Of a DNA stretch of 64,000 nucleotides, positions 7,884 to 63,301 are shown one piece after another. The notes below the pieces were generated by a model that saw only the letters and a list, made by a program, of their open reading frames with translations, had not been told where the DNA came from and ran no database searches. The DNA is from Leptospiraceae bacterium (GTDB taxonomy: Bacteria > Spirochaetota > Leptospiria > Leptospirales > Leptospiraceae). The first letter of the stretch is position 1. The number at the start of each line of letters is the position of its first letter. The translations under genes and the position numbers were made by a program. The DNA is taken from contig JAGOHK010000014.1 in the NCBI GenBank assembly GCA_017996175.1, positions 1 to 64,000 on the forward strand, read 5' to 3'.

Positions 7884-9215
7884 ATGAAGATAACGCTAAT
7901 TTCTCCCAAAGGTCCATTGTATAAACATAAAACTGGAATTTTTAGAAAAGACTTACGGGCTTCCCCACTAACACTGACTACGTTAGCCGCTCTAGTTCCC
8001 AAAGAATTGAATGCCAAGATTGAAATCTATGATGAAGGTATTGAGGATTTGCCTCCTAATTTAGATTCAGACCTAGTAGGGATGACTGTAATCACTGGCT
8101 CTGCTCCTCGATCGTATGAACTTGCAAAACAATTTCGTTCGAATGGGATGAAAGTGGTTCTAGGCGGTCCCCATGTTACACTCTTACCCGAAGAAGCTAT
8201 GTTACACGCAGATGCGGTAGTTACCGGTTATGCGGAAGAAACCTGGCCTGAGTTACTTAGAGACTTTTCAATTGGAAAATTAAAATCCCGTTATGACATG
8301 AGCCATAGCTTTTCACTTGAGAGAAAGGAAAATCTTCCCTTTGCCAGAAGAGACTTACTCAGGAAAAATTCTTACAAGACTACTTATACATTTGAGGCTA
8401 CTCGTGGTTGTGTGCATAATTGTGAATTCTGTGTTGTGCCCACTGCCTGGGGAAGAAAGCCCTACCAAAAACCAGTCTCTCATATTATAGACGATATACG
8501 TCAGCTTGGTGCAAAAAGGCTTTTATTCTATGATTTAAACTTAATTGCAAACAGAGCTTACGCCAAGGAACTATTTACCGCACTCATTCCTTTAAAAGTA
8601 AAATGGGTCGGACTTGCGACTACCTTACTGGGCAAAGATGACGAATTATTAGAATTAACCGCTCGAAGCGGATGCAAGGGAATGCTTTTGGGTTTTGAAA
8701 GTATATTTCCTGATACTCTCAAATTAAATAACAAATCCTTTAACGACCCGGAACAATATGCAGAGATTATAAAGAAATTGCAAAAAGTAGGAATTGCAAT
8801 CAATGGGACTTTTGTATTTGGAAATGATACCGACACAAAAGATTCTTTTGATGCAGTTCGAGATTTTGTTCTCACAACTGGAATTGACCTTCCCCGTTTT
8901 TCCATTCTAACTCCATTTCCACGGACTCCGCTTTTCCAACGACTCGAAAAAGAAAATCGAATCATCGAACGAGATTGGAGTAAGTATGACGGACAACACG
9001 TAGTATTCGCACCCAAACAAATGACCGCAGATGAGCTAATGCGCGGGCATGAAAAAGTCTGGAAAGATGTATATTCATATAAAGGAATTTTTAAACGAGT
9101 ACTACAAAATTTTATGACTCCGATTTTTCCAATTGTAGTCGGGGCTAATATTGCTTATAGGTATTATGCATTTAACCTGTCTCGTTTTTATACTTGTAGA
9201 GGAGGATTCATTTGA
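7884..9215 (+). CDS. B12-binding radical SAM enzyme (first of tandem pair)
   Basis: Residues 1-130 form a cobalamin-binding Rossmann-like domain ('VGMTVITGSAPRSYELAKQF', 'VVLGGPHVTLLPEEA'). The SAM barrel follows, with Cys176, Cys180 and Cys183 (RGCVHNCEFC) for the 4Fe-4S cluster. The C-terminal region resembles DUF4070-type tails. Members often methylate unactivated carbons or do B12-independent radical chemistry on lipids and natural products. The start is one base after the previous stop, and the end overlaps the next gene by 4 bases. No His is seen at the usual DxHxxG position, so cobalamin would bind base-off. Confidence 0.92.
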   Translation: MKITLISPKGPLYKHKTGIFRKDLRASPLTLTTLAALVPKELNAKIEIYDEGIEDLPPNLDSDLVGMTVITGSAPRSYELAKQFRSNGMKVVLGGPHVTLLPEEAMLHADAVVTGYAEETWPELLRDFSIGKLKSRYDMSHSFSLERKENLPFARRDLLRKNSYKTTYTFEATRGCVHNCEFCVVPTAWGRKPYQKPVSHIIDDIRQLGAKRLLFYDLNLIANRAYAKELFTALIPLKVKWVGLATTLLGKDDELLELTARSGCKGMLLGFESIFPDTLKLNNKSFNDPEQYAEIIKKLQKVGIAINGTFVFGNDTDTKDSFDAVRDFVLTTGIDLPRFSILTPFPRTPLFQRLEKENRIIERDWSKYDGQHVVFAPKQMTADELMRGHEKVWKDVYSYKGIFKRVLQNFMTPIFPIVVGANIAYRYYAFNLSRFYTCRGGFI

Positions 9216-10588
9216 GGATAACATTAATTCACCCTTGTATTGGTCGAATCCCTGGCAAAAAGTACATTCGTGGTTGGCAGATGGAACCGCTCCCTGCCGC
9301 TCACTTAGTTGGGTTAACTCCAAAAGATATTGATGTGAAATTTTATGACGATAGAATGGAAGAAATTCCATATAACGAAAAAACCGACTTAGTCGCAATC
9401 AGTGTCGAAACCTATACCGCAAAACGATCTTACCAAATCGCAACTGAATACCGCAGACGTGGAATTCCAGTCGTCATGGGTGGGTTTCATCCTACGCTTA
9501 TGCCAGACGAAGTTTTAGAATACGCAGAGGCAATCGTAATAGGAGAAGCGGAAAGTTCCTGGCTCGACTTAATTTCTGATTTTAGAGAAGGGAGATTAAA
9601 ACGAATCTATAAATCAGACAAACGACCGGATATAACATCTGTTAGCCCCGACAGATCCATCTTTAAAAATAAAAACTATCTTCCTATCGGGTTAATCGAA
9701 GCAGGCAGAGGTTGTACTTTTAAGTGTGATTTTTGTGTGATACAGACTTATTTTAGCTCAACGCAAAATCATCGCGGTATACAGACGATTATCCATGAAA
9801 TTTTATCTCTTAAAAAAACAAAAAAACTTTTTTTCTTCGTAGATGACAATATTGTGTCTCACCCTAAAGAAGCAAAAGAACTATTTCGCGCGCTCATCCC
9901 TCTCAAAATTCGTTGGGTAAGCCAAGCTGCCATCACGATGACTCATGATGAAGAACTTCTTTCTATCATGAAAGAAAGTGGATGCCAGGGTGTTCTTATC
10001 GGTTTCGAGTCATTAAACGCTGAGAACTTACTCAGTATGAACAAATCTTTTAATAATCTAAAAGGTGGCGCGCAGGGAGCGATTGACAGGCTGCATAGAT
10101 TTAATCTCAGGTTATATGCTACTTTTATTTTTGGATACGATGGGGATACTCTTGATTCGTTTCAAAAGACTATTGACTTTTGTATTTCCAATTCTATCTT
10201 CATGGTTGCGTTTAATCATCTTACTCCGTTTCCAGGAACTCCTCTGTATAAACGACTCGAAGAAGAAGGAAGGCTTTTATACGACAAATGGTGGTTAGAC
10301 GATAGATATGCTTATGGGCAAGTTCCATTTAAAACTGTAATTCCACCCGATACAATTAAAAAAGAATGTGTGAGAGCGCGAAAAGAATTCTATGGATTTA
10401 AATCTATATTCAAAAGGATTTTTCACAAAACAAACTCGGGGAACTTTTTTATGCTACGAGCTTACCTATTTATCAATCTACTTCTAAGAAGAGAAGCTAC
10501 AGAAAGAGAAGATTATCCGCTTGGCGATAGAGCATTCAAAGGGGAATTGTTAAAAGTAAAAAATCTTGTAGAGCATGAGCCGCGTTAA
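9212..10588 (+). CDS. B12-binding radical SAM enzyme (second of tandem pair)
   Basis: This is a paralogue of the preceding gene with the same architecture: cobalamin domain ('VVMGGFHPTLMPDEVLEY') and radical SAM core (RGCTFKCDFC; Cys168, Cys172, Cys175). The TTG start overlaps the previous TGA (TTGA) and has a strong GGAGGA site, so translation is coupled. The two copies differ substantially across the substrate-facing barrel, which suggests successive or different steps rather than redundancy. The end overlaps the GNAT gene by 14 bases. The substrate is unknown. Confidence 0.92.
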   Translation: MRITLIHPCIGRIPGKKYIRGWQMEPLPAAHLVGLTPKDIDVKFYDDRMEEIPYNEKTDLVAISVETYTAKRSYQIATEYRRRGIPVVMGGFHPTLMPDEVLEYAEAIVIGEAESSWLDLISDFREGRLKRIYKSDKRPDITSVSPDRSIFKNKNYLPIGLIEAGRGCTFKCDFCVIQTYFSSTQNHRGIQTIIHEILSLKKTKKLFFFVDDNIVSHPKEAKELFRALIPLKIRWVSQAAITMTHDEELLSIMKESGCQGVLIGFESLNAENLLSMNKSFNNLKGGAQGAIDRLHRFNLRLYATFIFGYDGDTLDSFQKTIDFCISNSIFMVAFNHLTPFPGTPLYKRLEEEGRLLYDKWWLDDRYAYGQVPFKTVIPPDTIKKECVRARKEFYGFKSIFKRIFHKTNSGNFFMLRAYLFINLLLRREATEREDYPLGDRAFKGELLKVKNLVEHEPR

Positions 10589-11687
10589 AATTTTAAAAGC
10601 AATTTTAGAGGATAATGAAGGTTTGCTGGAATTTCTAAAAGAGAATCCTTCACCAGGGTTAATTCAAATTCAGCTAGACCGTACTCCTTCCTACTTCGAT
10701 TCGATTCGAGTGGAAGGTTTTCCAAGTGATGTGATGATTGGAAAAGAAACGAATACCGGAAAAATCGCAGGCGTAGGAAATCGAAGTGAAAAAAATTGTT
10801 TTGTAAATGGAAAACCAGAACAGTTAGGTTATCTAAGCACACTTAGAATTAAAGAGGAATATCGAAATTCTATTTTTTTAGTAAAATCCTATAACTTTTT
10901 AAAAGAACTCCATAAAAAATCAAAAGTAAAATTTTATCTAACGACTATACTCAAAGAAAATAAATTAGCCCGGGCTATTTTGACTTCCAAGAGAGCTGGT
11001 TTGCCTATTTATGAAAGTATTGGATTTTATCATACCTATATTATTTCTAAGAATCAAAAAATCAATACTGCGAATAATAATTATTCAGTGCAGGTTGCAA
11101 AAGAAGAGGAGATAACGGATATTATCCTTTTTTTAAATTCTTATGGCAAGGAAAAACAATTTTTTCCAATCTACACGAAGGAAGATTTTTTAAATAAAAA
11201 TACTTTATTAAACGGAATTCAAATTAGCGATATTCTAATTGCCAGAGAAAAAGGAGAAATCGTAGGAGTTATTAGTTTATGGAAGCAAAATTCTTTTCGA
11301 AAATGGATTGTAAAAGATTACGAACCGATTTTGAAATATTCTAGACGGATTTACAATATCTATGCTTATCTAATGAGAAAACCAGTATTACCCGCTCTTG
11401 ACACTGAATTCAAATACCGGTTTCTATCCACTGTAACCATAAAAGATAATAATTCCGAAGTATTTAAAGCCTTACTCAATGTTGTCTGGAGTATTCTAGA
11501 TCAAAAGACAGATACAGATTATTTAGTCGCAGGTTTTCATGAAAAAAATACGATAGGCGATGTGGTAAATCAATTTCCGCATTGGAAGATCACAAGTGAA
11601 GTTTTTGTTGTCTATTGGGAAGAAGAAAAACAAGATATTCCAGATTTTAGAAATGGAATTCCTTACTTGGAAGTTGGCTCTCTATGA
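10575..11687 (+). CDS. GNAT-like protein, probably two acetyltransferase-fold halves
   Basis: The product has 370 residues. The first half has GNAT character: 'GYLSTLRIKEEYRNSIFLVK' resembles the acyl-CoA-binding strand and helix, and 'ARAILTSKRAGLPIYESIGF' the C-terminal 'N-x-x-A-x-x-x-Y-e-x-x-G-F' element. The second half repeats a weaker version ('DILIAREKGEIVGVISLW'). It probably transfers an acyl or aminoacyl group to an amine made in the pathway. Its ATGA overlap with the next gene shows translational coupling. The donor and acceptor are unknown. Confidence 0.7.
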   Translation: MSRVKILKAILEDNEGLLEFLKENPSPGLIQIQLDRTPSYFDSIRVEGFPSDVMIGKETNTGKIAGVGNRSEKNCFVNGKPEQLGYLSTLRIKEEYRNSIFLVKSYNFLKELHKKSKVKFYLTTILKENKLARAILTSKRAGLPIYESIGFYHTYIISKNQKINTANNNYSVQVAKEEEITDIILFLNSYGKEKQFFPIYTKEDFLNKNTLLNGIQISDILIAREKGEIVGVISLWKQNSFRKWIVKDYEPILKYSRRIYNIYAYLMRKPVLPALDTEFKYRFLSTVTIKDNNSEVFKALLNVVWSILDQKTDTDYLVAGFHEKNTIGDVVNQFPHWKITSEVFVVYWEEEKQDIPDFRNGIPYLEVGSL

Positions 11688-53728: not shown

Positions 53729-56700
53729 TTATGAATTTTTGAAATTATTGTATGATTCAAAGAAAAGTTCATTTGGAATAAACCCTTCCCTGTCGCGCGA
53801 GAGTTCTGGTTTAATTCGAAGCAGAAAATACATATCAATCATACCTTTATTTTTGGCTTCGATCTTTCCCCTGTATTCACATTCAAAAAAATCTTTTACA
53901 GAATTGTAGGTTGCATCCGAGATATTAATTTTAGCGATTGAGCCGTTTGATTCCATTCTAGAAGCAGTGTTAACCGCATCTCCCCACACGTCATAGGCAA
54001 ACTTTGTTTTGCCTATGACTCCGGCGACTACCGTTCCTGTATGAATTCCAAGTCTCATATCCCAAAATTCTCCACCTGAAATTTGTTCTACTATAGATTT
54101 AGTTTCATTCATAAAATGCTGCATTTCAATGGCAGCTAGGCAAGCATCAATTGGGTGAGTAGAGTTAATCTCTGGTAAACCCCCCGCACACATATAGGCG
54201 TCACCTATCGTTTTAAGTTTTTCAATATTTCTTCTCTCACAAATTTGATCAAATTGCAAGAAGATCATATCTAATTTATCTAATAAATCTTCCGGGGACA
54301 TCTGACTAGCTATTCTTGTAAAACCTTTGAAGTCAGTAAAAATAACGGTTACTGAATCATAAAGTACTGGTTTGACAAATCCTTTCTCTTTTAGTTCGTT
54401 TGCTATTTTTTCCGGGAGGATATTCAATAGTAACTTGTCAGATTTTTCTTTTTCCGCACTGATAATTTCTTGGGCTTTGATATTTTCAGTTACATCAAAA
54501 TAAAGTGCGATTAGACCAATGATTTCATTGTTAATATCAAACAGTGGAGAGTAATTGATTTCAAATGTAAATTGTTCTATTTTACTTCGCAGTATTTTGG
54601 GTTCACCATCCAATGCAGAAATGATTGCTTCTATCGCATCAGGGTTATCTTCAAACATTTCTAATATAGAAACTCCATTTGCTTGTCCACTTTTGAGACC
54701 AATTAGATTTAGACTTCGTCCCTCTGATAAAGTAATAATTCCGTAAACATCCGTAGAAAATAAAATTAAAGGAGCATTGGACAATACGGTTGTTAAAGCA
54801 GCCTGCGATTTTACTAAATCAGAAGTTCGTTCGGTTACTTTTATTTCCAACTCATCATAAGATTTTTTTAAATTAGAACTCATCTCGTTAAATCTTTCAG
54901 AGAGAACACCAACCTCATCATTCGTATTAATTGGAATTTCATGGTCAAGGTTTCCGGCTGCGATAATTTGTGCGCCCTTCGCAAGGGATAACAACGGTTT
55001 TGTGATATACGAAGACAAAAAAAGCGTTAGTAGAATGGTAAGAAGTAATGTAAATAATCCTGCAATTGCGACGATATTTTGCATTTCGTAAATCGGATTA
55101 TAAACAATGTCACGGTCATATTCGAAAATGGCTACGCCGATTTTAATTGTATTCCCATAGTATTCTATCAATATAGGAAATGTTATTTTTAGTATATTTC
55201 GATTAGTTTGAATTGAGAATTCTTCTATCAAGTCGATTGTATTCACGGATTGGATATACGAAATTTCCGTTTCAGGTGCATATTCGTTTACTTTTGTTTT
55301 ATTGAAGTCAACTACGTATTTGCCGTAAACATTAATAATATAAACATCCATCAGTCCTTCAATATTGGATTTTAAAATTTCAGATACAATTGAGTTAGTC
55401 GCAGTATAGGTATTATCCTCTATTAAATCTTCTCTTGCGATATTGGCGATATTTATAGCGAAATTTCTGCATACTTCCATTGTTTTATTTTGTAGAATTA
55501 TTTTACTATTGTAAAGAAATATATACGAAATAACCGATATACAAATCACAGTAATTGCGGATGTAAAAAATCCAAGTTTAAATTTGAGGCTAACGAATAT
55601 TACCCTATCTTTCCATTTAATTTTTTGATCACTACTGGATAAATAAACAGAGAGTATAATAAGGAAAGAAAAAGAGGAAAGAAAAAAAACACTATCACCT
55701 AAAATAGATTCATACAATCCAACTTGAATTGACTCTTCTATACTTTGAATTGGAATGTCGGCTGCTAGTACATAATCCTTTTTGATTATACTTTTGATTG
55801 GAATTAATACAGTTCTAAAACTTCCCCATTCAGTGCCAAACTCATTAAAGTAAATAATTTTATTTTTACGAATGGATTCGAATATCTTATCTTGAAATGT
55901 AGTCACTTCATCTTTGAATTTAGTAATCAAACCTTTATCTAAATCTTGCTTTATTTCGCTGCTTGTGGCATAATAAAGTTTGCCGTTTTCTTCAATGATA
56001 GAATAAAGATAAGAAAAATGAATATCCTCTGCAAATTGACTTAGAGTATCAACGATTTTTTCATACTCGAGCGGGGTTATAGAATTCAATTTTTCGTGAT
56101 AACCTATAGGTATTATGCTTTTCATCGCTAGGGTCGCGGTAAGCAAAATAGAATCAGAATATTCGTAGATTTGATTTTTTTTCTTTTGATAATGATAAAT
56201 GGAAAATATAAAAGTAAAAACAATTGTAATAAATAAAGAGAGGTAAATCCCTGTTCTCCTTTTCTGAATAAAGATATATTCGTAGATTCTTCTTTGATTG
56301 AGTAAATCATACGTAAGGTAGGCAAAAGGAAAAAATATACAAATTCCAACCAAAATAGAAATCCCTACAAAATAATGAATAGAACTTTGAATTTTTTCTA
56401 GGTTCATATCTGCTGCAATTAAATATATTTTTCCTGATTTTGTTTTCTCGGGAAGTGCTACGGTTCTAAAATTTCCCCATTTATCTTTAGAGTAAATAGG
56501 GTGAATTTTGTTTACAGTAATATCTATTTTCTTTAGGTCAGAATTTTCTTCGATAGAATACTCATCATAAAAGTTTGGATCTATTTTTTTAATTATATCG
56601 CTTGTTTTGGTATTGGTAGAGGTAAAATAAAATTTGCCGTTCTCTTTGACTAGAGTATAAATGTATTCGATTTGAATATCTCGAATCAATTTATTTAGAG

Positions 56701-56953
56701 TTTCTTTTATCTTATCGTATTCATCTTTGGAGATAGAATTTTTATCTTTTATTTTTTCATGATAATCTTGTGGTAATATATACTTCAGGGAATGGACAGC
56801 GATGGATAGTTTTTCATCTACCATTTGGTAATAACGATTTACGTTTACTTTAAATAGAAAAAATGAAAAACTCACAGAAAAAAGAAAAACAAAACCCAAA
56901 GCAAATAGATTTAAAAAAAATCTGAGTTTAGACTTTAGGTTTTTTATTTTCAT
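53729..56953 (-). CDS. Large membrane adenylate cyclase with three sensor modules
   Basis: The product has 1074 residues. Two similar extracytoplasmic modules are stacked in tandem (about 30-200 and 250-430; each has 'YHEKI/L', 'ENGKFYFTSTNT' or 'ENGKLYYATSSE', and W-G-(N/S)-F-R-T-V-L). A third sensor like that of the neighbouring SpoIIE gene follows (about 480-640, 'IYIINVYGKYVVDFNKTKVN'), then HAMP, a PAS domain (about 735-840) and a class III cyclase (875-1050; 'FTDFKGFTRIA', 'KTIGDAYMCAGG', 'YDVWGDAVNTASRME'). Lys and Asp fit adenylate specificity. It is the last gene of the SBP/SpoIIE/cyclase run. Confidence 0.92.
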   Translation of the reverse strand: MKIKNLKSKLRFFLNLFALGFVFLFSVSFSFFLFKVNVNRYYQMVDEKLSIAVHSLKYILPQDYHEKIKDKNSISKDEYDKIKETLNKLIRDIQIEYIYTLVKENGKFYFTSTNTKTSDIIKKIDPNFYDEYSIEENSDLKKIDITVNKIHPIYSKDKWGNFRTVALPEKTKSGKIYLIAADMNLEKIQSSIHYFVGISILVGICIFFPFAYLTYDLLNQRRIYEYIFIQKRRTGIYLSLFITIVFTFIFSIYHYQKKKNQIYEYSDSILLTATLAMKSIIPIGYHEKLNSITPLEYEKIVDTLSQFAEDIHFSYLYSIIEENGKLYYATSSEIKQDLDKGLITKFKDEVTTFQDKIFESIRKNKIIYFNEFGTEWGSFRTVLIPIKSIIKKDYVLAADIPIQSIEESIQVGLYESILGDSVFFLSSFSFLIILSVYLSSSDQKIKWKDRVIFVSLKFKLGFFTSAITVICISVISYIFLYNSKIILQNKTMEVCRNFAINIANIAREDLIEDNTYTATNSIVSEILKSNIEGLMDVYIINVYGKYVVDFNKTKVNEYAPETEISYIQSVNTIDLIEEFSIQTNRNILKITFPILIEYYGNTIKIGVAIFEYDRDIVYNPIYEMQNIVAIAGLFTLLLTILLTLFLSSYITKPLLSLAKGAQIIAAGNLDHEIPINTNDEVGVLSERFNEMSSNLKKSYDELEIKVTERTSDLVKSQAALTTVLSNAPLILFSTDVYGIITLSEGRSLNLIGLKSGQANGVSILEMFEDNPDAIEAIISALDGEPKILRSKIEQFTFEINYSPLFDINNEIIGLIALYFDVTENIKAQEIISAEKEKSDKLLLNILPEKIANELKEKGFVKPVLYDSVTVIFTDFKGFTRIASQMSPEDLLDKLDMIFLQFDQICERRNIEKLKTIGDAYMCAGGLPEINSTHPIDACLAAIEMQHFMNETKSIVEQISGGEFWDMRLGIHTGTVVAGVIGKTKFAYDVWGDAVNTASRMESNGSIAKINISDATYNSVKDFFECEYRGKIEAKNKGMIDMYFLLRIKPELSRDREGFIPNELFFESYNNFKNS

Positions 56954-57001
56954 TTAGTATTTTTAATCCTTACCGTTTTTGGCATTGTATATAGAAGAGA
57001 A

Positions 57002-58555
57002 TTATTTGCACTCAATTCCTACAAATGCTATATCATCTTGTAACTCTTCTCCGTGTAAAAAAATATGCAATTTACTAAAGACATCATCTATTGTGTAAGA
57101 AATGGAATTGAATTTATTTTCGAGTAAAACTTCATACAATCTTTCTTCTCCGAATTCCTCCTCCCCATAAAACTCCTCAAAAATACCGTCAGTGAAAACA
57201 AAAACACGGTCAGAAGTTTTAAATGGATATTCGACAACTCCATATTCACAGTTTGGTTTAAGTCCGATTAAAGGTCCTGTTTTGGGTAATAATTTGTAAG
57301 TCCCTTCTTTATGAATTAAAACTCCAGGTGGATGTCCGGCGGAAGAAAATCGCAACTTAAAATTTTGGGTATCAATATCCAGAAGAATGCAAGTTAAGAA
57401 TGTGTTTAATGTTCCGTATCTCCTGCTAAATTCTTTATTAAAAATTTCCATCACTTGATTTACGGGAAGGGCAAAGTTTTTAATGCTATCATAGATTCCT
57501 TGTATCGCCATTACGATTAATGCTGCTTGTATTCCATGTCCAGTAGCGTCAGCTAAAAAAATGCGACTGGTGGTTTCATCTAATTTGTCGATGCTATAAA
57601 AATCTCCCCCAACTCCTACCTCTGTCATAGCAACATATTTTACTCCAATATCTAATTCTTTATGTTCTCGGAAGTTAGTCGTAAGAGTTGCCGATTGAAT
57701 TTTTTGTGCGACTGATAGATCTCTTCGAATTAAACTTAGGCTTTCGTTGAGTGCCGCGGTTCTTTCTTTTACTTTTTCTTCTAATTGTTCGTAGGACTTT
57801 TTTAAATTATTACGCATTTCGTTAAACTCTTCTGAGAGTAATCCAATTTCATCGCTGCTATCAATCTGAATATTATGATCCAATACACCTGAGGCTATTA
57901 ACTGTACACCGTTAGAAAATAAAATAATAGGTTTTGTAATATAACTTGCTACAATAAATGTAACAATGAGGGTAAGGATTGTAATTCCCAGACCAACAAG
58001 TGCAATTTTAGTCTGTGCATCATAAACCGGTCTGTAAATTATATCTCTGTCATATTCAAAAATAGCTGCACCAATTTTTAATGGTTGTTCGTTATAATTG
58101 ATATAAATAGGATATGTGACTTTCAAAATATTCTTGTTTGTATCTGCTAAATACTTTTCTTGTAAATCTAAGGACTTAATATTTGTAAGATAAAATAATT
58201 CCTCGGTGGATGCAAATTCAGTGAGATTAGTTTTGTTAAATTTCACTACGAATTTTCCATACACGTTTACAATATATATACTTTCAAGTCCCTCTACTTT
58301 TGACTTAAAAATTTCATTAATCACTGAGTTAGTGGATTCATAAGTTGCATCAAGTACCAAATCTTCACGCACTACATTCGATATGTTTTCTGCGAAATTT
58401 CTACAAATTTCGATCGTTTTTTTTTGCATGATAATTTTACTATTATAAAAAAATACAAAAGAAATACTAGAAAGGCAAAGAATTGTCACAGCGGATGTCA
58501 GTAGGGAAAATTTTAATTTAATACTGATGAATCTTTTTTTGTTTTTCTGAAACAT
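57002..58555 (-). CDS. SpoIIE-type PP2C phosphatase with extracytoplasmic sensor
   Basis: The product has 517 residues. A membrane helix, an extracytoplasmic sensor (about 45-190), a second helix, a HAMP domain and a coiled coil lead to a PP2C/SpoIIE phosphatase (from about 280). Metal Asp residues are in 'GVGGDFYSID', 'ADATGHGIQAALI' and 'FTDGIFEEF'. The sensor and HAMP are strongly alike to the third sensor of the downstream cyclase, residue by residue ('VYGKFVVKFNKTNLTEFAST' versus 'VYGKYVVDFNKTKVNEYAPE'). It probably dephosphorylates an anti-sigma antagonist. It has a 3-base gap to the SBP gene. Confidence 0.92.
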   Translation of the reverse strand: MFQKNKKRFISIKLKFSLLTSAVTILCLSSISFVFFYNSKIIMQKKTIEICRNFAENISNVVREDLVLDATYESTNSVINEIFKSKVEGLESIYIVNVYGKFVVKFNKTNLTEFASTEELFYLTNIKSLDLQEKYLADTNKNILKVTYPIYINYNEQPLKIGAAIFEYDRDIIYRPVYDAQTKIALVGLGITILTLIVTFIVASYITKPIILFSNGVQLIASGVLDHNIQIDSSDEIGLLSEEFNEMRNNLKKSYEQLEEKVKERTAALNESLSLIRRDLSVAQKIQSATLTTNFREHKELDIGVKYVAMTEVGVGGDFYSIDKLDETTSRIFLADATGHGIQAALIVMAIQGIYDSIKNFALPVNQVMEIFNKEFSRRYGTLNTFLTCILLDIDTQNFKLRFSSAGHPPGVLIHKEGTYKLLPKTGPLIGLKPNCEYGVVEYPFKTSDRVFVFTDGIFEEFYGEEEFGEERLYEVLLENKFNSISYTIDDVFSKLHIFLHGEELQDDIAFVGIECK

Positions 58556-58558
58556 TGT

Positions 58559-60166
58559 TTATTTTTTTTCCCACAGCAGGTAACATTTTTTATCCGCATC
58601 TCGAAGACAATTTTCATACTTTAACATAGCTATTTTTTTTTCTTTGGAAAGTCTCAGATATTCTTTTACATTTTTATTTTCAGGATCTACCAAAAGTATA
58701 TTTTGAAACATTTCTTCTGCCTCCGAATATTTTCTAACTTCATACAGACTTTTTCCAGTCTGAGTGTAAATGGATATATTCTGAGTTTCCTTCGTGCGAA
58801 GTCGCGCCAAATTAGCCTTAGCCTTTGTATTTAAATCTAAAATTCTGAGTGAATTTAAGTATTTTTGCAATGCGGCAAATGGTTGGTTTAAAGCTTCTAG
58901 TTTTTCACCGCTTAGCCTTTCAGACTCACTTTCTTGAAATAAGGAATCTTGTATACCTTGTCTGGCTCGTTTATTTTCAGGATGTAACTTTAACACTTGT
59001 AAATAAAGCTCCTGTTCTTTTTTATAATTTTTTGTATTTTTATATTCTTCTGCTCTTTCTAAAAATTCTGCTATTTTATCTCCATTCATTCGTTGATTAA
59101 TGTGATTTCTGTAATAAAAAGCAGTATAATTGTTTGGATCTTCTTTGAGTATTTTTTCCATTACCAGAATGCTAATTTCAAGATTCCCCTTTTCATAAAA
59201 TCGAATTCCTTCTATCAGCAAACGGCTATTTTCCGCTCTGCGAATGATATTTTCAGGCAGGCTAATTCCTGATTCCTCTGAATATGTTTTATTCAAACTT
59301 AAAGAAAATTCCTTTACACCTATTGCGTATCCATCTTTGCATTTAGTTTTTCCTGAGAGAACTTCATTGACTAAATCTCCCACGAGGGTTCCTACCCGCG
59401 CATAATAGGGTGTAATACTGAACGTAGTCCCAACATTTACAATAAATGGAATTTGTGTCATGAGGATAATTTTATTTTCTTTTGCAAATTTCGATATTGT
59501 TTCGAAATTTTCTTGCGTATAAATTGGATCGGGAACAAGATAGAATGCATCTATTTTTCCCTTGAGGTTCTTTAGTATTGGCGCAAAATCAGATTTATTC
59601 TCCACTTTTATTTTTTGAAATAAAATTCCGAATTGAGAATCGGAATAGTCGGCTTCATTTGCAAAAAGCTCACCCGAATTATTACTAAAAATAGAAATTA
59701 CAACCTTAGCCTGTGGATCTATTTCTTTTAGTGATCTAAAAAAATCTTGGATAGGAACATCTATATGTACCCCGCAAGTATTGGTCGCAAAATTAAAACC
59801 AATCGCCCTGGGTGCATTTACTAGAGAATACAAAATCGGAACTGTAGTCAAATTTTCTCGAGCAACTAGGCTTGCCTGTGGACCGAGTGTAATTAAAAGA
59901 TTAGCTTTTTTGTTTTCTAAATTCGAAAAAAAAACTTTGAGTTCTTTTTCACTCATACTATTTGTGAAATTTAAGTTAAGATTTTTTTTAGAGCTGGATT
60001 GAATACTTTGAAGAGTGCTCAGATAAACGCTATTATTCGAGGATAGAAGCACATCAACTGAAGAATTATCATCTGCAAAAATGGAAAAGGAAATTAGAAA
60101 GAAATAAAAACAAACTTGTAAAATTTTTTTTTGTGTTCGATGGAGGACTTTGTTTATTTTTCTCAT
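58559..60166 (-). CDS. ABC-type substrate-binding protein fused to TPR domain
   Basis: The product has 535 residues with a cleavable-looking signal ('ILQVCFYFFLISFSIFADD'). The first 300 residues match the ABC_sub_bind family (TrpX-like: 'LLITLGPQASLVARENLTTV', 'PILYSLVNAPRAIGF', 'VPIQDFFRSLKEIDPQAKVV', 'KIDAFYLVPDPIYTQENFE'). TPR units of about 34 residues follow ('YTAFYYRNHINQRMNGD', 'LEALNQPFAALQKYLNSLRI', 'ARQGIQDSLFQESESERLSG'). No ABC permease or ATPase is adjacent, so it is likely a ligand sensor rather than a transporter part. It faces the TonB receptor gene divergently. Confidence 0.9.
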   Translation of the reverse strand: MRKINKVLHRTQKKILQVCFYFFLISFSIFADDNSSVDVLLSSNNSVYLSTLQSIQSSSKKNLNLNFTNSMSEKELKVFFSNLENKKANLLITLGPQASLVARENLTTVPILYSLVNAPRAIGFNFATNTCGVHIDVPIQDFFRSLKEIDPQAKVVISIFSNNSGELFANEADYSDSQFGILFQKIKVENKSDFAPILKNLKGKIDAFYLVPDPIYTQENFETISKFAKENKIILMTQIPFIVNVGTTFSITPYYARVGTLVGDLVNEVLSGKTKCKDGYAIGVKEFSLSLNKTYSEESGISLPENIIRRAENSRLLIEGIRFYEKGNLEISILVMEKILKEDPNNYTAFYYRNHINQRMNGDKIAEFLERAEEYKNTKNYKKEQELYLQVLKLHPENKRARQGIQDSLFQESESERLSGEKLEALNQPFAALQKYLNSLRILDLNTKAKANLARLRTKETQNISIYTQTGKSLYEVRKYSEAEEMFQNILLVDPENKNVKEYLRLSKEKKIAMLKYENCLRDADKKCYLLWEKK

Positions 60167-60367: not shown

Positions 60368-63301
60368 ATGAAAAAAAATCTTTTTTTAGCTATCGGAATT
60401 CTTTTTCCTTTTTTATCGATTCTTTCCAGTGACATCAATAAAAAAATTTCCCTTGGCAAGTTTATTCCTCATAAAACGGAAATAGATAACAATCGAGAAA
60501 ATAAAATTATCTCCTCCTTAGCTGCTTCTCTGGAATCCGCAGGTTACAGTATTACTTTTCTAAAAGGTAATAGAGAGTCTAATTTAGATTTAGCGCAAAA
60601 AAATGGGTCTCTCTATTATGTAGAAGGTTATTACCAGGGAAAAAGAGAAAAAAATATTCTTACTCTTTATGCATTACTTTACGATCCAAAAACTGGATAC
60701 TTAGTCGATGTAATTCGACAATCAAATGATATTGTGGATTCACTGGGTACAGAATTTAAAGACCTAAATGATAAATACAAAGAAGATGAAAATAAAGTGA
60801 CTCAAAGTTTAGGTGATGCCGTGTCTTTCTCTGTTTTAACAAATCCTTCTAAGACAGAAATTCGAGAAAATATCTATGATCAATTATTATCTAGACCCAT
60901 TGGAAAAGAAATAGATGTCTCGATTGCCAAAGAAGATAAGACTGAGAAATCAAAAGAAATTTTAAAACAACTTGGAGAAGAGGAAGTCATTACCGCCTCA
61001 AGAACTAGCCAAAAGATTTCAGATGCTCCTTCTAAAGTTGTAGTATTTTCGAGAGATACAATTCATGAGAGAGGATACCGAACATTAACCGAATTACTGC
61101 AAGACGTACCTGGGTTCGATTTTAATTCGTTTAATGATTCGGGAGAATACCCAACTGATTTAATTCTAAGAGGTATCTCGGATGTGGGGCAAACTCAAAT
61201 TTTGCTCATGGAAAACGGAGTTATTCAAAATGATATAGGAAATGGATGGCTGAGACATGTTCAGTTTGATACTGTCCTTGTGGATGTGGAGCGAATCGAG
61301 ATTATCTTGGGTCCCGGTTCTTCTCTCTACGGGGCAAACGCTTATGCAGGATTAATTAATATTATCACTCGAAAAGGAAAGTCCCTGTTCACTAAAAAAA
61401 ATGCAACCGTTATGGGAGATACAAGACTCCAAGTGGGTGCGAATAATACTTATTTGCCGGAAGGAATGTTTGCATTTAAGTTGCCAAACGATATGATTTT
61501 TCAATTGGCAGGAAGATATTATAATACAAACGGGGATAAAGGTAAAGGGCGACCTGATCCTGGAAATTATTTTAACAATAACTTTGAGCCTAATCAAGTT
61601 CAAATTGCGCCTGATCCAAACCGTATCATAGTAAATAACGATAGGACTCTTTTCGGAACATCAAAACCTTTGACTAACGGTTTTGATAATTCCGCAAAAG
61701 ATTTTTTTGTTAGAGGTGCATTGTCGAAAGATGGACTGACTATTGGGTTTAATATCTGGGATGTAAAAGAAGGACTCGGAACTTACGTTCCTTCTTATGA
61801 ATATTTTACAAATACAAAGGGAATACCCTTTATGAAACATCACAGAGGATACTATGTAAATGCAAGTTATGAGACTAGTATAACCCAAAAACTTTTTTCA
61901 ACTAGTAAAATTTATTACCGCAATACAACGATTATGCCCGACACTGGTTTTGTCTATACCTATCGTTATCAAAGTATTGATTCACCGATGATAAATGGAC
62001 AGCCTGGAGTACCGACCTACGATAAAGCAAAACAATATTACGGACCGAGCACAATGACCGGTGCACAACAACAATTTAACTATAATGTAACTGAGTCAAA
62101 TAACCTAGTTTTTGGGTTACAACTGGATAAATTCATAAGACAGTCGATTAGTGATTCCGTTGGTGCAATTGGTGTAGGTGGAGTATCGCTTGGAAGAAAG
62201 CAGAACACTAATTCGAATGTTGTGGATTCTGCATGGGAAAGCGAAAAACAATCAGTAGCCGCAGTTTTCTATTCAACTACTACTGCAGGATATATCCAGG
62301 ATGAACAAAAGTTTTTTAACGATAAATTATCTTTTACTCTCGGGGTCAGACATGACCAGGATTCTGACTTTGGGAAAATATGGACGAAACGTGCGGCTAT
62401 TATCGGTAAACCTATACAATGGTACAATGTAAAATTTCTTTACGGAGAAGCTTTCAAAGCACCAACGGTATTTCAGCTCTATGATGAATTTAGAGGAAAT
62501 CGAAATTTAAAACCACAAAAAATTCAAACCTTTGAAGTTGAAAATTCTTTTTTCATTAATAAAATTGCTACTTTAAAAGCGGGATATTTTATGAGTCTCT
62601 TGGATGGACAAATTTCTGAAGGAAGAAATCCAGATCCAAACGCTCCGGCTACCAAATCTACAATTTTTCAAAACTTCAAACCTACTCATATTTTTGGATA
62701 CACTTTCGAAGGCGAGATTTCGGTTACGAATGAAATTAAGGTATTTGGAAATTATACCATTACCCGCGATAGAAATATGAAAACTCTTTTCGACATACAG
62801 GCTAATGGCGCTGGAAACATAACATCGATTAGCCCCATATATGATGGAAAAGAAATAGATAATATAGCAGCCAAGAAAGGAAACATAGGAATCAATATTT
62901 TATTTTTTAAAAAGTTGAATGTAAACTTAAGATTGAATTATGTTGGAAAAAGAAAAGCACCCATTACAAATAAATATTTTCAGCCATACGATCCTACTTT
63001 TATCTCTAAAAATTACCCTTATCAGATAGAAGGAACACCAGATGGTTATATGTCCGCCTACACTTTATTAAATGCTACTATTACCTACAAAGATATTTTC
63101 GGAATTGAAGGTTTAGAGCTACAACTTATTGGTAGAAATATTCTAAATAAATCGTACGGAGGTATGGGTAGGCAGAGCGGGAATGCGGTTCGTCCCATTG
63201 ACGGATTACAGCCAAGTATCCGTAACCCGGACGGATTTGTAAGTCCCTACCATCCACAACCTGGACGGGAAATTTTTTTTCAGATTGTATATGCTTTTTG
63301 A
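60368..63301 (+). CDS. TonB-dependent outer-membrane receptor with extra N-terminal domain
   Basis: The product has 977 residues. After a signal peptide (residues 1-20) comes an additional ~190-residue domain ('AASLESAGYSITFLKGNRES', 'GSLYYVEGYYQGKREKNILT') not usual in transport-only receptors. A TonB-box-like 'EEEVITASRTSQKIS' and a plug domain with 'YRTLTELLQDVPGFDF' and 'ERIEIILGPGSSLYGANAYA' follow, then a 22-strand barrel ending in 'REIFFQIVYAF' (terminal Phe). The ligand is unknown. It is divergent from the SBP/SpoIIE/cyclase genes, which suggests signalling as well as uptake. Confidence 0.94.
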   Translation: MKKNLFLAIGILFPFLSILSSDINKKISLGKFIPHKTEIDNNRENKIISSLAASLESAGYSITFLKGNRESNLDLAQKNGSLYYVEGYYQGKREKNILTLYALLYDPKTGYLVDVIRQSNDIVDSLGTEFKDLNDKYKEDENKVTQSLGDAVSFSVLTNPSKTEIRENIYDQLLSRPIGKEIDVSIAKEDKTEKSKEILKQLGEEEVITASRTSQKISDAPSKVVVFSRDTIHERGYRTLTELLQDVPGFDFNSFNDSGEYPTDLILRGISDVGQTQILLMENGVIQNDIGNGWLRHVQFDTVLVDVERIEIILGPGSSLYGANAYAGLINIITRKGKSLFTKKNATVMGDTRLQVGANNTYLPEGMFAFKLPNDMIFQLAGRYYNTNGDKGKGRPDPGNYFNNNFEPNQVQIAPDPNRIIVNNDRTLFGTSKPLTNGFDNSAKDFFVRGALSKDGLTIGFNIWDVKEGLGTYVPSYEYFTNTKGIPFMKHHRGYYVNASYETSITQKLFSTSKIYYRNTTIMPDTGFVYTYRYQSIDSPMINGQPGVPTYDKAKQYYGPSTMTGAQQQFNYNVTESNNLVFGLQLDKFIRQSISDSVGAIGVGGVSLGRKQNTNSNVVDSAWESEKQSVAAVFYSTTTAGYIQDEQKFFNDKLSFTLGVRHDQDSDFGKIWTKRAAIIGKPIQWYNVKFLYGEAFKAPTVFQLYDEFRGNRNLKPQKIQTFEVENSFFINKIATLKAGYFMSLLDGQISEGRNPDPNAPATKSTIFQNFKPTHIFGYTFEGEISVTNEIKVFGNYTITRDRNMKTLFDIQANGAGNITSISPIYDGKEIDNIAAKKGNIGINILFFKKLNVNLRLNYVGKRKAPITNKYFQPYDPTFISKNYPYQIEGTPDGYMSAYTLLNATITYKDIFGIEGLELQLIGRNILNKSYGGMGRQSGNAVRPIDGLQPSIRNPDGFVSPYHPQPGREIFFQIVYAF

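Follow-up and report, generated by a model that had tools for sequence, protein, structure and literature searches.

The 64,000-nucleotide (nt) window analysed here (positions 1 to 64,000 of contig JAGOHK010000014.1, assembly GCA_017996175.1, from a Leptospiraceae bacterium) contains a locus in which one type of membrane sensor is attached to two different enzymes encoded by adjacent genes, a SpoIIE (PP2C-type) phosphatase and a class III nucleotide cyclase. These genes belong to a three-gene operon on the minus strand (53729-60166) that begins with the gene of a secreted binding protein and continues with the SpoIIE gene and then the cyclase gene, with intergenic gaps of 3 and 48 nt. No terminator-like site was found between the operon genes; the single one found lies inside the binding-protein gene. 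The operon is divergent from the gene of a TonB-dependent outer-membrane receptor, and the window thus holds one TonB receptor, one binding protein and two sensors. The four genes and the two copies of the sensor cassette are as follows.

53729..56953, minus strand: cyclase gene with N-terminal repeats, sensor-HAMP, PAS and class III cyclase, 1074 amino acids (aa)
57002..58555, minus strand: sensor-HAMP-SpoIIE gene, 517 aa
58559..60166, minus strand: binding-protein gene, 535 aa, with a secreted ABC_sub_bind lobe and C-terminal tetratricopeptide repeats (TPRs), a candidate relay (family alignment A3, n = 27)
60368..63301, plus strand: TonB-dependent receptor gene, 977 aa (PF00593 and PF07715)
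57686..58546, minus strand: sensor-HAMP-coil cassette, SpoIIE-protein copy, aa 4-290
54752..55612, minus strand: sensor-HAMP-coil cassette, cyclase copy, aa 448-734

The cassette consists, in order, of a transmembrane helix (TM1), a single Cache/WalK-like periplasmic domain, a second transmembrane helix (TM2), a HAMP domain and a coiled coil. In a BLASTP alignment the two copies match without a gap, with 148 of 287 residues identical and 215 similar (E 8e-94). Identity between the copies is 81/144 in the periplasmic part, 24/37 (65%) in the long helix, 30/50 in HAMP and 15/36 in the coil, after which the output parts share only 12 of 227 residues. A sequence-only reading of 54860-58555 had described a duplicated input module on a phosphatase and a cyclase, located in the latter at about residues 470-740 and recognizable as far as the coiled coil. 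The alignment agrees with that description in its position and in its end point, and the stretches singled out are present (VYGKFVVKFNKT / VYGKYVVDFNKT, and FEYDRDI in both copies). The two cassettes evidently share a common ancestor. Their DNA is identical at just 465 of 888 positions across the aligned stretch; the duplication is therefore old, and a recent duplication or an echo of assembly is rejected.

A model of the SpoIIE-protein sensor (md0259616d88c), built from an alignment of 30 sensors, has a mean pLDDT (predicted local distance difference test) of 84 and shows a long helix continuing TM1, one PAS-like sheet, TM2 and HAMP, which is the arrangement of a single Cache or WalK-like sensor. 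Its fold matches include the extracellular domain of WalK (4ywz, Z 12.9, root-mean-square deviation 2.8 across 139 residues; 9a5d, an integrative model, Z 17.7), CitA (1p0z, Z 12.5), DcuS (3by8, Z 11.7) and LuxQ (2hj9, Z 10.1), where rows within Z 1 of each other are tied and the Z values name no ligand. The dCache fold that had been suggested from the sequence was not borne out: although dCache entries are among the matches, a single sheet module, about 80 residues long, follows the long helix in the model. With regard to the pocket, for which the evidence is mixed, identity counted per secondary-structure element is 42/81 between the window copies for the Cache core (aa 90-170), 9/14 for strand b4 and 9/13 for strand b5, and three of the five framework strands show 60-69% identity. 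Ten columns are invariant in the 30 aligned sensors, one of them Cys51 of the window SpoIIE protein (30/30; Cys495 in the cyclase), which lies in the long helix of the periplasmic part. Within its first 205 residues, the SpoIIE protein has just one further Cys, Cys27, in TM1.

Beyond the sensor, the SpoIIE protein has a different ancestry. Its phosphatase part is 59-62% identical across 224-227 aa to 7TMR-DISM SpoIIE proteins of three genomes, namely the source genome (G000), G005 and G007; the relative in G000 has a 7TMR-DISM sensor, and those in G005 and G007 look alike by eye. Per ten residues, identity to the cyclase drops from 8/10 at aa 244-253 to 2/10 at aa 284-293, and identity to the 7TMR-type proteins climbs along the same stretch from 1-2 to 7-9 of 10. 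The parts of the protein concerned are the following.

57800..57952, minus strand: HAMP of the SpoIIE protein, aa 202-252 (PF00672, 40.5 bits, cut-off 25)
57707..57796, minus strand: signalling-helix region where the two identity trends cross, aa 254-283, with ERT at aa 264
57011..57574, minus strand: SpoIIE / PP2C-type phosphatase domain, aa 328-515 (PF07228, 132.8 bits, cut-off 25)

PMC1592074 describes ERT as a mark of the signalling helix, a coiled coil that connects sensor domains to PP2C, cyclase or kinase outputs. The two trends cross around this mark, so the sensor is joined to another phosphatase within the signalling helix. By its sequence, the SpoIIE gene is a chimera of a sensor like that of the neighbouring cyclase and a phosphatase of the 7TMR-DISM SpoIIE type. 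It shares with the receptors presented in that text the ERT coiled coil between sensor and output, and differs from them, as far as that text goes, in being a concrete chimera with two ancestries meeting in the helix. Just ahead of the phosphatase GGD motif are two extra residues (57608-57613) that are absent from the G007 orthologue and from 7TMR-DISM-type SpoIIE proteins. They could stem from a tandem duplication or from an error of assembly, and they may affect phosphatase activity.

Among the 48 class genomes examined, adjacent sensor-SpoIIE and sensor-cyclase genes are seen in two, G000 and G007. In a third genome, G006, the binding-protein gene leads straight into the cyclase N-terminus, which bears on loss or gain of the SpoIIE gene. 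In the sensor tree, the paired copies of G000 and G007, SpoIIE and cyclase alike, form a group without G006 (86/91). A topology with all cyclase sensors in a single clade is an alternative that the test does not reject (p-AU 0.113), which leaves more than one order of events compatible with the tree.

The cassette represents a family with exchangeable outputs in this spirochaete lineage. The source genome encodes six full-length sensors. Sensor matches (E <= 1e-3), some of them weak, are found in 27 of the 48 class genomes, and a phylum sample gave matches in 76 of 296 genomes, nearly all the additional ones being weak; a contig scan gave eight loci from Leptospirales, Leptospiraceae, Spirochaetia or an uncultured bacterium. 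Reading of neighbourhoods at E < 1e-30 gave 32 sensor genes, reduced to 31 when L105, the same stretch as L063, was dropped. The sensor is attached to SpoIIE phosphatase with a TPR tail, to a short SpoIIE, to a third SpoIIE kind, to adenylate cyclase and to histidine kinase. With these five labels, a sensor tree of 30 labelled rows implies at least six output changes, or five if all SpoIIE proteins are pooled; the SpoIIE kinds are labels of this analysis, and L102 was assigned to the TPR kind. The phosphatases themselves are dissimilar. That of the window gives no significant match to the one of C85 (15 bits), and its identity to the phosphatases of L059 and L103 is 28%.

The genes around the sensor are more constant. 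Genes for ABC_sub_bind-TPR proteins, called by their own profile at E < 1e-90 in the stretch read around each sensor, lie near 29 of the 31 sensor genes directly and near 30 if one case across a contig break is included. In that case the L052 contig opens partway through the cyclase gene, and on a different contig of G006 an N-terminal piece of a cyclase directly follows a binding-protein gene; this piece and L052 are presumably one gene. Of the 29, 21 are within 150 nt of the binding-protein gene and the other eight at 600-2845 nt, with room for intervening genes; the strand agrees in 27. A TonB receptor is present in the stretch read for 23 of the 31 sensor genes, or 24 with the contig-break case; the loci that show none in that stretch include L052 itself, L063 (at a contig end) and L106. 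In the reverse direction, all 19 full-length binding-protein genes (E <= 1e-150) lie at sensor loci, one of them by the G006 assignment, in a set of 13 chosen genomes, 11 of which were picked for having a strong sensor and which are no random sample.

Several loci at the edge of the family deserve mention. The distant sensor-cyclases L110 and L111 are divergent to TPR-only proteins (10224-11267 and 8130-9167, respectively), an arrangement in which the TPR part looks like the earlier partner of the sensors. L110, L111, L118 and L119 at first looked like binding-protein loci; L110 and L111 have the TPR-only proteins, and none of the four was counted. On contig C43 of the source genome (27593-30245), a SpoIIE frame with a weak sensor match (E 4e-7) adjoins a short stretch that matches the binding-protein profile but has no TPRs (6.8e-27). 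The similar pair at L120 was left uncounted, its sensor match being weak (5e-8) and its ABC_sub_bind gene shorter. At L053, a ferrochelatase gene (9359-10441; PF00762, 7.9e-79) adjoins the sensor-SpoIIE-TPR gene, and the same ferrochelatase protein start stands beside the G005 and G007 loci, a hint that haem or iron might be the signal.

The remaining parts of the window proteins are listed here.

55604..56953, minus strand: two membrane repeats in tandem at the cyclase N-terminus, aa 1-235 and aa 236-450 (65/192 identical, E 1e-28)
54467..54808, minus strand: PAS between HAMP and cyclase, aa 716-829 (TIGR00229, 24.6 bits, cut-off 22.9)
53819..54364, minus strand: cyclase catalytic domain, aa 864-1045 (PF00211, 174.4 bits, cut-off 21.9)
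60368..60952, plus strand: receptor N-terminal domain, about aa 1-195, with a TolB-N/PelC/CsgG-like fold (model pLDDT 81)

The binding protein is a member of the ABC_sub_bind family (PF04392, 64.4 bits, cut-off 25.9) with solved relatives 3lft, 6hni and 3lkv. Its score of 62.4 bits against the tryptophan-binding protein TrpX (NF041285) falls far short of that equivalog's cut-off of 390. Cys131 and Cys276 are invariant (27/27), and among the segments compared conservation is highest in the last TPRs (aa 466-515), with a mean entropy of 1.54 vs 1.76 for the lobe. In the TonB receptor, the Pfam matches cover plug and barrel only. Its N-domain, for which no Pfam name was found, resembles TolB-N, PelC, FlgT and CsgG (Z about 10-12), and none of 13 receptor N-domains matches STN, the domain of FecA-type transducers. 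This N-domain is widespread, with 40 matches in 11 of the 13 genomes. The cyclase is a class III nucleotide cyclase by PF00211, and its product is presumably cAMP (cyclic AMP) and not cGMP (cyclic GMP), judging from the Lys/Asp motif letters. Its PAS domain exceeds the TIGR00229 cut-off and stays under that of Pfam PAS_9, and its best NCBIfam match is WalK (NF033092), at 87.8 bits far under the cut-off of 725. The two N-terminal membrane repeats are absent from the shorter sensor-cyclase of G003 (L050) and have relatives (E <= 1e-3) in five of the 48 class genomes.

Taken together, these features suggest, with somewhat better than even confidence, that the locus is one trans-envelope signalling unit in which receptor and binding protein feed one type of sensor, here with two outputs. 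The TonB-dependent receptor would take up or sense a substrate at the outer membrane, and the secreted ABC_sub_bind-TPR protein would carry the state of the receptor through the periplasm. There its last TPRs, which are conserved, would probably mediate docking to the Cache domains of the two paralogous inner-membrane receptors. These in turn would relay the change via HAMP and signalling helix to the SpoIIE phosphatase and the adenylate cyclase, so that one input would result both in dephosphorylation of some protein and in cAMP. What suggests this chain is that the neighbourhood is conserved and that the binding protein persists when outputs change. Points in its favour are the identity of the cassettes, the neighbour counts and the reverse search, the repeated output changes, the short operon gaps without a terminator and the conservation of the TPRs. 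The fold matches to WalK and LuxQ are counted likewise, as both are receptors under the control of partner proteins. That the two sensors receive the same signal, and that one signal splits into two branches as the sequence-only reading proposed, is plausible mainly from the single binding-protein gene that stands beside two sensors in one operon.

Other observations weigh against such a unit. At the sensor locus L106, the 19.5 kb read contain no binding protein of this type, and in a single genus the stretches read at five loci (L097-L101) lack a TonB receptor. The TonB N-domain also occurs away from sensor loci, with 11 matches in the source genome against five full-length binding-protein genes. 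Binding protein and sensor co-vary across 26 loci (Mantel r 0.90, 0/5000 permutations), a correlation confounded by descent, to which the five paralogue pairs of the source genome add nothing, being all about equally distant. Lastly, the loop and helix at aa 106-129 form the most divergent soluble part of the sensor, with 8/24 residues identical between the copies in this genome and 9/24 in G007, compared with 14/24 for the SpoIIE protein and 20/24 for the cyclase between window and G007 orthologues. The framework has thus been preserved, unlike the loop, in which paralogues differ more than orthologues do. This divergence counsels caution about a shared small ligand and leaves a shared partner protein undecided.

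The loop also provides the main argument for a rival explanation, in which the Cache domains of the duplicated cassette have since diverged in specificity and respond to different cues, the operon being merely common to them. That the copies are overall only about half identical fits this idea, which is nonetheless unlikely given the single binding-protein gene of the operon, the well-kept long helix and strands b4 and b5, and the retention of the pair in two species. No more probable is an arrangement for import only, with TonB receptor and binding protein forming an uptake system whose genes are regulated by the sensors and which itself carries no signal. Import is the usual role of TonB receptors and of binding proteins, and the N-domain is found in many receptors away from sensors; however, every full-length binding-protein gene in the reverse search lies at a sensor locus, and a TPR tail is unusual for an import protein.

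The two receptors could instead act in series, in the manner of SiaABCD, with the phosphatase acting on a phosphoprotein that controls the cyclase. The phosphatase and cyclase genes adjoin, the SpoIIE protein matches SiaA (NF038263) best among NCBIfam profiles, at 67.7 bits, and at L059 a gene with weak likeness to SiaC comes after a related sensor-SpoIIE gene. A single pathway of this kind is nevertheless rather improbable, as the match falls short of the 700 bits set for a SiaA equivalog, the phosphatase and cyclase genes of the window enclose no third gene, and the cyclase owns a separate sensor. At L059 itself (9424-10355), two small genes follow the sensor-SpoIIE gene, the second being the SiaC-like one (PF09345, E 0.004), and the locus is perhaps a SiaABC-type output. 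Finally, the gapless alignment of 287 residues, the long helix and its invariant Cys would allow heterodimers formed through helix, HAMP and coil, that is, one mixed receptor bearing both phosphatase and cyclase. HAMP and coil have diverged between the copies, however, and class III cyclases of this kind require two cyclase chains for activity, which makes a mixed receptor very unlikely.

If the trans-envelope signalling unit is real, a signal at the outer membrane would be read across both membranes by a relay indifferent to the enzyme attached, and evolution would have swapped that enzyme several times and retained the relay. The family would then offer naturally occurring receptors that share a kind of input and differ in output, well suited to comparing how Cache, HAMP and helix control a phosphatase, a cyclase and a kinase. 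It would also provide a candidate input for part of the large spirochaete SpoIIE repertoire (77 SpoIIE-domain matches in the source genome). The conserved partner set around an output-swapping sensor is of greater interest than the duplication. It may, tentatively, define an outer-membrane-to-cytoplasm receptor class, made up of a TonB receptor with a TolB-like domain, a TPR-bearing relay, a Cache sensor with an invariant periplasmic Cys, and a phosphatase, cyclase or kinase swapped at the signalling helix, with one relay driving two outputs here. A search of open-licence papers found none describing this gene set.

Known systems resemble parts of the locus. In FecA-FecR-FecI, a TonB receptor with an extra N-terminal periplasmic domain is found near an inner-membrane signalling protein. 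The window shares this layout, whereas its receptor N-domain is TolB-like without an STN match, and no FecR or sigma factor is among the four window genes scanned. The extracellular domain of WalK (YycG) is similar in sensor fold (4ywz, 9a5d) and in the NF033092 match of the cyclase; outputs and neighbours differ, and sequence identity in those fold rows is about 7-16%. LuxPQ and other binding-protein-coupled PAS/Cache receptors likewise combine a secreted periplasmic binding protein with a receptor of PAS/Cache fold, a combination known here from gene neighbourhood. Here the binding protein is instead of ABC_sub_bind type with TPRs, a TonB receptor is in the neighbourhood, and phosphatase and cyclase are among the outputs. 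SiaABCD of Pseudomonas (PMC8457831, PMC7647112, PMC7278518) has a HAMP-PP2C phosphatase and a cyclase in one operon, as does the window, whose SpoIIE protein also matches NF038263. The cyclase of SiaABCD makes c-di-GMP (cyclic di-GMP) and SiaC serves as the link, whereas the cyclase of the window belongs to class III and carries a sensor copy itself.

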